A stretch of 34,867 nucleotides of DNA from Chitinophagales bacterium. GTDB taxonomy: Bacteria; Bacteroidota; Bacteroidia; Chitinophagales; JANQFB01. The stretch lies in assembly GCA_028278085.1 (NCBI GenBank), contig JANQFB010000191.1:1-34867 (forward strand), written 5' to 3'. Under the pieces are notes generated by a model. That model saw only the letters and a list, made by a program, of their open reading frames with translations. It was not told the origin of the DNA and did no database searches. Both the position numbers and the translations under genes were made by a program. This document shows, one piece after another, positions 5,778 through 15,390 of this stretch (positions within the stretch are counted from its first letter, which is position 1; each line of letters opens with the position of its first letter).

Positions 5778-6368
5778 ATGATCGCTATTGAAAAAACTTT
5801 GGTCAGTGAAGCATTGATCGAGGAGCAATTTACTTGTAACCTCAATGCCTGCAAAGGCGCCTGCTGCATCGAAGGTGATTCGGGGGCTCCCCTGGAGGAT
5901 GAAGAGCTCGGCATCCTGGAAGACGAATATCCGCAATACCGGGATTACCTGACCGATGAGGGACGGCAGATGATCGAAGACCAAGGACATTACACGATCG
6001 ATCCGTCCAATGGCGTTTTTAAAACACCGGTACTGGACAACGGCGCCTGTGCCTACCTGACCTATGAAAAGGGCATCGCCTTATGTGGGATCGACAAGGC
6101 CCATGCTGCCGGTCATACTATTTTTAAGAAACCGGTTTCTTGTCATCTATACCCGGTACGGATCAAACGATTGCCCGATTATGACGCTGTCAATTACGAG
6201 GAATGGGATATCTGCAAAGACGCCTGTACCCTTGGAGCATCGCTCAAAATCCCGGTTTATGTCTTCGTCAGGGAGGCATTGATCCGGAAATACGGACAAT
6301 CTTTTTATGATACGCTGCATGCAACGGCGGAGTACTTGAAAAACAGGCAAGAACAGGATCAGTCATGA
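5778..6368 (+). CDS. DUF3109 family cysteine-cluster protein
   Basis: A 196-residue cytosolic protein of the DUF3109 family, common in Bacteroidota. The N-terminal half has the pattern FTCNLNACKGACC (Cys20, 25, 29 and 30), followed by further cysteines in GACAYL, ALCGI, VSCHLYP and DICKDAC. The spacing resembles YkgJ-type zinc/iron-cluster families and suggests metal or Fe-S binding, but no activity has been assigned that I can name with confidence. There is no signal peptide or membrane segment. A possible promoter lies 65 bp upstream. It converges on the macrodomain operon across a non-coding stretch. The length and cysteine set look complete. Confidence 0.85.
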   Translation: MIAIEKTLVSEALIEEQFTCNLNACKGACCIEGDSGAPLEDEELGILEDEYPQYRDYLTDEGRQMIEDQGHYTIDPSNGVFKTPVLDNGACAYLTYEKGIALCGIDKAHAAGHTIFKKPVSCHLYPVRIKRLPDYDAVNYEEWDICKDACTLGASLKIPVYVFVREALIRKYGQSFYDTLHATAEYLKNRQEQDQS

Positions 6369-6500
6369 CCTTTCATTGGTGTTTGGTTAAAATAACTACC
6401 GTCGCTTTCAAACTCTTAGTATTATTGAAGCTATGCGAATCTCAAACAATCATGGGCGGCGAAATAGTATTTTGAACCTCAAATCATGTACCTCCATAAA

Positions 6501-6670
6501 GAATATCGATTAACGAATGGAGATTTAAGAAGTTGGGAGTCAATCATCTACTTCTAAAATCGTTAATCGACATTCCTTGCGCCTTCGCTGTAGCCAGCTA
6601 TGGCGTAAGCGTTGTTCGATATTCAAAATACGGACAACACTAGGTTAATTTGAATTTTCCCGGACACTAC
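6501..6670. repeat. Palindromic intergenic element (REP/MITE-like or IS remnant candidate)
   Basis: The whole 6369-6725 gap between two convergent genes lacks a supported ORF, but this part is highly structured. Outer arms 6501-6516 and 6560-6575 pair over 16 positions with one mismatch (shared core TCGATTAACGA/TCGTTAATCGA). Inner arms 6524-6533 and 6550-6559 pair over 10 with one mismatch, leaving a 16 nt loop and a 7 nt bulge. A second hairpin follows: 6576-6583 with 6602-6609, including one G-U. The first nine bases, GAATATCGA, also pair perfectly with 6616-6624, so alternative folds exist. Two related 10-mers, CGGACAACAC (6631-6640) and CGGACACTAC (6661-6670), close the element. This layout suits a dispersed palindromic repeat or a mobile-element remnant; copy number cannot be judged here. 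Confidence 0.55.
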
Positions 6671-6725
6671 TGATGATCTTTTGCCGATTTACCCCTTGAG
6701 CGCCCATCATAGCATTATCCAGCAG

Positions 6726-7292
6726 TCAGCCGGCATCCATCAGGGGCAGGGTCGCCAGTGGCTGATAAGTAGGACCATCGGCAGCCAGGTGGGATGACCA
6801 TAAGATACATTGATCCACATTCAGCAATTCCGGCGATCTTTTTAAGCTGAGGTCCAATACATGCGTAGCCCTGAATTGCTTAAAACGGGCAAGGGTGATA
6901 TGCGGCCAATTGGAAGGATGATCTTTTTGAAGCTCCACGTGTTTCCCTACTCCGCTTTCTACCGTTTCGACCAGCTCGTCGAAAGCCGCTTCTGCAGCAT
7001 ACCTGGCCCAGATCATTCGAGGCCTTTGCTCGGGCGGCATCAGGCATATTTCCTGAAAGCGTAGTTGGAACGGGGGAATATTGGCGATCCCCTGTTTCAG
7101 GTCGGTAATGAGCTCATCGATCAATGTTGCTTCCACATTACCCAAAAAGCAAACGGTTAGATGGTAGTTTTCCGGCCTGACCCAATTGATGCCATAATAC
7201 TTCCGGTTCGTCCGGGCGATCTTTGCCAGGCTAGTTTTTAATGGCTTGGCAGCAGGTATGCCGACGAACAAGCGGTGACTACCGGATAACAA
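6726..7292 (-). CDS. thpR: RNA 2',3'-cyclic phosphodiesterase (2H family, ThpR/LigT-like)
   Basis: A 188-residue 2H phosphoesterase. Both catalytic HxT tetrad halves are present: YHLTV (His44, Thr46) and PHITLARF (His131, Thr133), each preceded by the expected strand, plus the N-terminal HRLFVGI. The family opens 2',3'-cyclic phosphates at RNA ends to 2'-phosphates; relatives in eukaryotes open ADP-ribose 1'',2''-cyclic phosphate. The start is a TTG at 7292; no in-frame ATG fits, and it places RLF at the usual distance from the N-terminus. It overlaps the acylphosphatase gene by 14 nt and is last in a three-gene operon with a macrodomain protein, which suggests cyclic-phosphate metabolism rather than an isolated RNA-end function. 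Confidence 0.88.
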   Translation of the reverse strand: MLSGSHRLFVGIPAAKPLKTSLAKIARTNRKYYGINWVRPENYHLTVCFLGNVEATLIDELITDLKQGIANIPPFQLRFQEICLMPPEQRPRMIWARYAAEAAFDELVETVESGVGKHVELQKDHPSNWPHITLARFKQFRATHVLDLSLKRSPELLNVDQCILWSSHLAADGPTYQPLATLPLMDAG

Positions 7293-14763: not shown

Positions 14764-15390
14764 ATGAATTGGCAGTTAATAGTTAAATACATTAGTAGAA
14801 TTTTTCTGGCTATCTCTCTTCTATGTGTAATCAACGGACACGCTCAACCAATAGATTCCGATGATAAGTTAAATGTTTACATGGACATGGGTTTAAATTA
14901 TATCCCTTATGATGAATTAACAGGTCCGGTAATCGGTTTAGGTATAAAGCATCATAAAAGCGGATTTACCTTTTTTTATCGTAAACATCTTAATTTTTAC
15001 ACTGGATATTCAACTACAAATGCCTTCCATAGATTTGGTAACTTTCCTACTTATAAATTTCAAATTCTTAATTTCTATATTTCAAATAATTTTGAATTAA
15101 GTTATCCTATGTTCTCGACTAGAAAAAAGCCATTATGGATCGGAATAGGCTACGGGTGGTTATATAACGATACAAGAAAAAGGCGCGAAGAACGGTATAG
15201 TGGTTATTCTATCATATTTAGCTCAATACGATATAAGATAGATTGGCTTTTTTTTGGAATTAGTGGGGGATATCCGATTCCTCCCAAAGGATTTTATAGA
15301 TATTATGAAAGAACCAATATTCTTTTCCCAATCTCCTTTTCCTTAATCTACAGATTTAACCCTCGATTAAAATCAAAAAATCTCGGTTAA
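14764..15390 (+). CDS. Exported beta-barrel-like protein of unknown function
   Basis: A 208-residue protein with a signal peptide (hydrophobic residues about 11-26, ending GHAQ). The remainder is rich in F, Y and alternating strands (GLGIKHHKSGFTFFYRKHL, PLWIGIGYGWLYN, IDWLFFGISGGY), consistent with a small outer-membrane barrel or an exported beta-sheet protein. No family is recognised. It shares the strong AT bias of the upstream Cys-rich lipoprotein, and the two probably form one transcription unit, with a hairpin in the gap between them. It could be the membrane partner of that lipoprotein, which is inference from adjacency only. Confidence 0.7.
   Translation: MNWQLIVKYISRIFLAISLLCVINGHAQPIDSDDKLNVYMDMGLNYIPYDELTGPVIGLGIKHHKSGFTFFYRKHLNFYTGYSTTNAFHRFGNFPTYKFQILNFYISNNFELSYPMFSTRKKPLWIGIGYGWLYNDTRKRREERYSGYSIIFSSIRYKIDWLFFGISGGYPIPPKGFYRYYERTNILFPISFSLIYRFNPRLKSKNLG

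Follow-up and report, generated by a model that had tools for sequence, protein, structure and literature searches.

What is the nested palindromic structure that lies between two convergent genes of a Chitinophagales bacterium: a mobile repeat, a structured RNA or something else? The window, i.e., the whole stretch of 34,867 nucleotides analysed here, is contig C17 of a draft genome (6.12 Mb, 590 contigs). The structure occupies an intergenic gap, outside 23S rRNA, between a DUF3109 protein gene on the forward strand (5778–6368; Pfam PF11307, E = 5e-70) and a convergent LigT/2′-5′ RNA ligase-like gene on the reverse strand (6726–7292; Pfam PF02834, E = 6e-20). We found that it belongs to a family of non-coding elements dispersed over the genome, in which outer inverted ends enclose a palindrome of 7-nt words; in this copy, a second palindrome later split the first. 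In the same genome, a PF05635 gene is flanked by the arms of this element, and most of the PF05635 genes tested across the class lie between inverted arrays of such words. At first sight, the repeat in the window is an ordinary MITE-like one; it leads, nevertheless, to a regular arrangement around a very common gene family that seems not to have been described before.

Architecture of the element in the window

The pairings and the two 10-mers of the preliminary description were all found at their coordinates on recheck. The arms at 6501–6516 and 6560–6575 pair at 15 of 16 positions, those at 6524–6533 and 6550–6559 at 9 of 10, those of the second hairpin (6576–6583 and 6602–6609) at 7 of 8, and the alternative pairing of 6501–6509 with 6616–6624 is perfect (9/9). 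That so much complementarity exceeds chance was also borne out: the DNA fold of 6495–6680 reaches −29.9 kcal/mol, whereas shuffled sequences average −15.9 (z = −4.65), and none of 200 shuffles did as well. Folded as RNA, the same region gives z = −4.21 against shuffles, and the fold is strong on either strand.

The whole element, comprising outer ends, inner palindrome and inserted hairpin, spans 6374–6676 on the forward strand, as does every part given below, and begins 5 bp after the stop codon of the DUF3109 gene. In local alignments, likeness to the copies in C478, C577, C261, C42, C229, C481 and C114 ends about there, and pairwise comparison among copies places its reach at approximately 6374 leftward and 6674–6676 rightward. 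The left outer end, CATTGGTGTTTGGTTAAAATAA (6374–6395), follows a pattern seen in eight full copies and in one further element in C441, and is an inverted match to the right outer end, CCGGACACTACTGATGA (6660–6676). The latter includes the second 10-mer, CGGACACTAC (6661–6670); the first, CGGACAACAC (6631–6640), has a related form only in the C478 and C589 copies.

Between these ends lies the inner palindrome, which is built of 7-nt words (GAATATC|GAACAAG|GATTAAC|GATTTTA|GAAG). In the window, the left arm (6501–6533) reads GAATATC GATTAAC GAATGGA GATTTAA GAAGT, and the bulge within it (6517–6523) is exactly one word, 7 nt, long. Across copies, the left arm runs GAATATC|GAACAAG|GATTAAC|GATTGAA|GATTTAA|GAAG and is mirrored by a right arm of GAACAAG|GAACACC|GATTAAC|GATTTTA|GAAG. 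The period is visible in the mean self-identity of the left arm, which is 0.564 at lag 7 and 0.13–0.35 (maximum 0.347) at lags 2–6 and 8–12. Compared with its sister in C478, the window copy has exactly one GAATATC word fewer. The 16-nt loop (6534–6549) varies among copies and holds no ORF; its counterpart in a cassette of contig C64, described below, is a gene.

The right arm is interrupted. Its inner part, ACTTCTAAAATCGTTAATCGACATTCCTTG (6550–6579), is followed by a 35-bp palindrome (6580–6614), which is the second hairpin and has no counterpart in C478, and then by the outer words TTCGATATTC (6615–6624). The junction in C478 reads ATTCCTTG|TTCGATATTC, so that the outer words directly adjoin CCTTG; the window carries CGCC...AAGCGTTG between these two parts. 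The insertion has thus moved the outer words outward, which accounts for the nine-base alternative pairing. TTG occurs both before the insertion (6577–6579) and at its end (6612–6614), a possible 3-bp target duplication. As an independent repeat, the 35-bp hairpin was ruled out: it occurs at three places in the genome (C17, C379 and C589), each inside this element family.

Some further palindromes were noticed at such positions. Unrelated ones sit at one shared position within the right arm, at CCTTG^TTC, in the window (6579/6580) and at loci L073, L083 and L150 (3/28 right arms plus the window), measuring 35 bp in the window and 33 bp in Neomarinimicrobiota. At L034, L087, L220 and L228, the arms are split by other GC-rich palindromes. 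Elsewhere in the window, a 14-nt unit, CCAATATCCTTTTC, is present in two copies (15314–15342).

Dispersed copies and their outer ends

A search of the genome with the element returned 21 matches including the window and, as C478 is split into two of them, the element has 19 other places. Their flanks are unrelated, and 17 palindromes could be aligned. The feature is therefore not a single-copy one, and the proposal of a MITE-like dispersed element is supported by these counts. Compensatory change, which the preliminary description named along with many copies as a sign of a mobile repeat, was seen on both sides in 1 of 18 pairs; pairing is retained within this genome mostly because the copies are alike. 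Nor did the suggested preference for gaps between convergent genes hold: of the 19 places, six are convergent, five tandem and five divergent, one lies over a 65-aa ORF and two are undecided.

The left outer end is common to eight copies (the window, C478, C577, C261, C42, C229, C481 and C114), as a pattern search repeated, and the mirrored right end is clear in seven of them, C114 being the exception. The consensus ends are ATTGGTGTCCGGTTWAAAT... and ...CCGGACAACATTGAT, the left one being also written ATTGGTGTCCGG.... Six copies consist of the inner palindrome without outer ends (C379, C282, C544, C286, C42:676 and C291), and those in C113 and C589 are fragmentary. Units measure 110–300 bp. 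Like MITEs, the copies are multiple, dispersed and devoid of ORFs, and the full ones carry terminal inverted repeats, which the core-only copies lack. No clear target duplication was seen at the element ends, which are too degenerate for the boundary to be placed. A search of a plasmid collection with the element gave zero matches.

The outer ends also occur apart from this palindrome. Their pattern has 22 matches in the genome at up to three mismatches versus 8 for the reversed control; at up to two mismatches, nine remain, i.e., the eight known copies and C441. The C441 element (L171; G000:C441:25344–25364, minus strand) has the outer ends of the window copy around different inner words, GAATGAG and GAATGAA. 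In the search for an autonomous partner with these ends in the same genome, no transposase was recognised among the four ORFs of L171, as judged without a family search. On the earlier idea of an eroded insertion-sequence end, these results bear only indirectly: inverted outer ends are present, with no transposase found beside them. A second outer-end family, AGTGTYTGTCYATAAAGT, has 36 matches in four Bacteroidales/Bacteroidetes genomes, with a mirrored partner at 22 of 30 loci. It encloses GAACAAG-type palindromes at 10 loci (eight different elements, because in two cases a pair of loci marks the opposite ends of a single one) and, by eye, CAAAT-type palindromes at nine (L212, L213, L216, L227, L232, L234, L235, L238 and L239). 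The CAAAT-type elements are MITE-like, eight of them in genome G098 and L213 in G100, and one short element (L221) has neither type of palindrome. Since C441 and the AGTGTYTGTCYATAAAGT family hold differing palindromes, outer ends and inner palindrome are separable; we take the former to be a MITE-type module and the latter an S23-type one.

Word arms around S23 genes

The genome has six matches to PF05635 (S23/23S-IVP, a four-helix-bundle family). One of these genes, in C64, is enclosed by the two arms of the element, 573 bp apart from start to start, and its product has a relative of solved structure (2rld, E = 5e-12). The left arm, ending in AGAAGGAG (...GATTTTAGAAGGAG), immediately precedes the ATG. 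The right arm scores 33–40 of 42 against 13 gene-less copies, 20–26 of 42 against the window (24), L018, L019, L029 and L034, and low against L020 (10) and L035 (8), which both lack that part. For the left arm, scores go from 18 (the window) to 33, apart from L020 (9). The window arms (left 18, right 24 of 42) thus fit this cassette less well than those of most sister copies. Flanks of the other five S23 loci of the genome score 10–13, which is background level. Arms of the element's own word family therefore do surround an S23 gene in this genome, and C64 is a candidate parent for the inner arms, its role in mobility being putative; no parent was found that has the outer ends. No S23 residue was seen in the gene-less copies of this genome, nor any copy with both outer ends and an S23 gene. 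As its arms enclose a loop of just 16 nt, without an ORF, the window copy is not itself an S23 cassette, only a proposed derivative of one.

Matches to PF05635 are present in 48 of 60 genomes sampled at the level of the class (Bacteroidia). We compared 36 S23 loci: 29 from the class, being the best of the matches listed for 29 of these 48 genomes, six from the genome of the window and L039, which entered via arm similarity. The 120 bp upstream of each gene were matched to the reverse-complemented 120 bp downstream, with a cut-off score of at least 16. This was reached by 24 of 36 S23 genes (23/35 without L039), by 4.0% of 1260 cross-locus pairs and by 1 of 39 other ORFs from the same loci, which were picked mechanically and have coding flanks in some cases. 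Twelve S23 loci fell under the cut-off; one of these is C64, whose right arm is outside the 120 bp compared. Autocorrelation at lag 7 exceeded z = 2 in 23 of 36 S23 loci versus none of the 39 control ORFs; among the S23 loci, other lags did so as well (lag 14 in 18/36, lag 8 in 10/36), and at a few the best period is 6 or 8.

The words themselves vary by locus (AGCTTAT, TATTGAG, TAGTTAT, GTTCGAA and others), while both arms of each locus match. S23 relatedness, considered as what dictates the words, proved weak (Spearman 0.15 over 630 pairs, some high scores being due to shared coding flanks), and pairs with 57–63% protein identity can have unrelated words.

Several S23 loci have features worth recording in themselves. 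S23 genes recur in particular operon gaps (L187, L198, L200, L203; L009, L189, L190, L194, L197, L199), namely in sufB–sufC (4/36) and beside a thiolase gene, apparently in fadJ–fadA (4/36 by motif, plus L190 and L009 by eye), and many of them have different arm words. At L244, the S23 gene sits amid long arrays of words like GAGCGAAA and GAGAGAAA (approximately 7–8 nt), mirrored downstream as CGCTCTTTCACTCTAT. Two PF05635 matches (G091:C43:22553–22876 and G047:C51:8487–8807) are inside long frames of 471 and 492 aa, possible fusions.

Gene-less and deleted forms are found in other genomes too. In named genomes, at least 105 stretches match a 19-mer of the arm, where approximately 2 would be expected at equal base frequencies. 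Among the matches listed, hosts are mostly Bacteroidota, along with Ignavibacteria, Neomarinimicrobiota, KSB1, Calditrichaceae, a Chlamydiota bin and one Enterococcus; the Enterococcus match and L090 look like chance coding matches. Of 114 arm sites, 8 have an S23 match no farther than 500 bp away, versus 5 of 1482 control points, a count whose first profile missed L014, one of the 36 loci; most arm sites therefore do not adjoin an S23 gene.

Deletion derivatives retain the start and the end of an S23 gene between their arms. At L102, MNK is fused to LISIFVKSLETAQNNLKQ-stop, i.e., to the other end of the gene; L068 and L071 retain the start alone. In G098, a full-length cassette (L245) coexists with derivatives at five places (L256, L257, L260, L261 and L262) that share its arms and have different flanks; one deletion is common to L256, L257 and L261, and those of L260 and L262 are larger. 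This is the pattern of an autonomous element with non-autonomous offspring, in which the S23 protein would have its part.

Origin of the element and comparison with known systems

We consider it likely that the element in the window derives from an S23 hairpin cassette, is MITE-like in lacking the gene, and lies inside a miniature inverted-repeat element. The inner palindrome would be what remained of such a cassette after loss of the gene, just as transposons give rise to MITEs, and would spread as non-coding DNA. RNase III removes the hairpins of 23S rRNA intervening sequences (IVS), and a transcript of the element would form a long hairpin of that kind, so that an insertion may be tolerated. 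As for movement, we put forward tentatively, and at less than even confidence, that there were two ways: copies with outer ends might have been moved by a putative transposase acting on ATTnnTGTCCGG, and copies without them by the mover of the S23 cassette.

The alternative that survives best is an ordinary MITE, on whose outer ends (ATTnnTGTCCGG) a DDE-type transposase would act in trans, the palindrome being a mere central hairpin and its likeness to S23 arms an unimportant later capture. In its favour are the left end common to eight copies, the different words between the same ends in C441 and the AGTGTYTGTCYATAAAGT ends, which hold GAACAAG-type or CAAAT-type palindromes in a Bacteroidales genome and neither type in L221 of another. 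However, core-only copies exist (C379, C282, C544, C286 and C42:676), the ORFs of L171 include no recognised transposase beside the outer ends, and word arms recur at S23 genes throughout the class. We regard this alternative as possible, though on the unlikely side.

A passive origin is improbable. Here, slippage and hairpin template switching would lengthen the 7-nt arrays and produce their mirror images, rearrangement would scatter the copies, and nothing would be selfish. Sister copies do differ in word number, as the window and C478 do, and words are locus-specific while the arms of each locus match; yet several of the 19 other places are alike over the entire unit, and three G098 derivatives at unrelated sites share one deletion, both of which require copying of whole units.

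It is very improbable that the feature is primarily a functional structured RNA, as had been suggested, or a bidirectional terminator that the host retains in a convergent gap. The strong fold on both strands and the convergent neighbours of the window copy would suit such a role, but convergent, tandem and divergent gaps hold copies in about equal numbers, an insertion interrupts the right arm in the window and covariation is confined to one of 18 pairs. In Rfam, no family scored above its gathering threshold for the window element (nuoG, 19.3 versus 33 bits). Transcripts of the element would nonetheless fold.

Least credible of all is an REP element moved by a RAYT (TnpA_REP) transposase, another early suggestion: the palindrome is dispersed and the REP-associated transposase search did return three Y1_Tnp genes in the genome, but no clear element copy lies beside them (five of six flank comparisons within the shuffled range, one borderline at 23 versus a shuffled maximum of 22), the unit measures 110–300 bp rather than 20–40 bp, and few of the 20 copies have GTAG (three) or CGTC (one) in their core region.

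If the S23 cassette is the source, as we favor, the consequences extend beyond this locus. To our knowledge, the function of S23/four-helix-bundle proteins has long been unknown. The reproducible context of their genes, with mirrored arms and multiplied deletion derivatives, turns them into a testable mobile-element hypothesis, and since arms stay mirrored while their sequence varies by locus, a copying mechanism is called for. S23 hairpin cassettes would also offer an origin for rRNA intervening sequences and explain a class of palindromic repeats of Bacteroidota. More speculatively, and at well below even odds, PF05635 genes and their mirrored arms may form a widespread class of hairpin elements, mobile or selfish, in Bacteroidota and neighbouring phyla. 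Their copying or maintenance would be aided by the S23 protein, diverging copies would acquire new words in both arms at once, gene-less palindromes would be their non-autonomous offspring, and rRNA IVS would be copies that landed in rRNA.

Among the papers listed by literature searches that cover a minority of subscription journals, none deals with S23 genes outside rRNA that have mirrored 7-nt arms. Heptamer direct repeats, TAACTGA and others, have been reported upstream of start codons, five Bacteroidetes included (PMC4679880, accessible part). TAACTGA is one fixed heptamer in direct repeats, and that part of the paper mentions no S23, IVP or four-helix protein; the words of the present element vary and its arms are inverted. 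Avd of diversity-generating retroelements is a structural relative of PF05635, according to a portion of PMC10053308, and two four helix bundle genes are merely listed in a portion of PMC5524665.

REP sequences are palindromes of 20–40 bp with a GTAG or CGTC foot, as described in an excerpt of PMC3733652. Like REP/BIME systems with their RAYT, our palindromes are intergenic and dispersed; unlike them, they are of another size, carry no consistent GTAG/CGTC tag and have no RAYT with matching flanks. The likeness to MITEs lies in small, non-coding, multicopy units with inverted ends, as deletion derivatives of a gene-bearing parent. The candidate parent here, in contrast, encodes a four-helix-bundle protein and not a transposase, and the arms are variable 7-nt words.

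The 23S IVS with an S23p ORF, known from Leptospira and Coxiella, differ in position, since the elements described here are in intergenic gaps outside rRNA, use many different 7-nt words and are mostly gene-less. In the Coxiella IVS, as given in the accessible text of PMC4990558, the S23p ORF is preceded by a purine-rich, SD-like AGAAGA and then by tandem heptamers (GACAGAT) in a number that varies among strains; transposition or mobility of the IVS is mentioned there as hypotheses only. Still, within what that text describes, the IVS and the C64 cassette are alike in that each forms a long hairpin whose loop carries a PF05635-type ORF, and the Coxiella heptamers before the ORF resemble the cassette arm, whose end, AGAAGGAG, stands just before the ATG.
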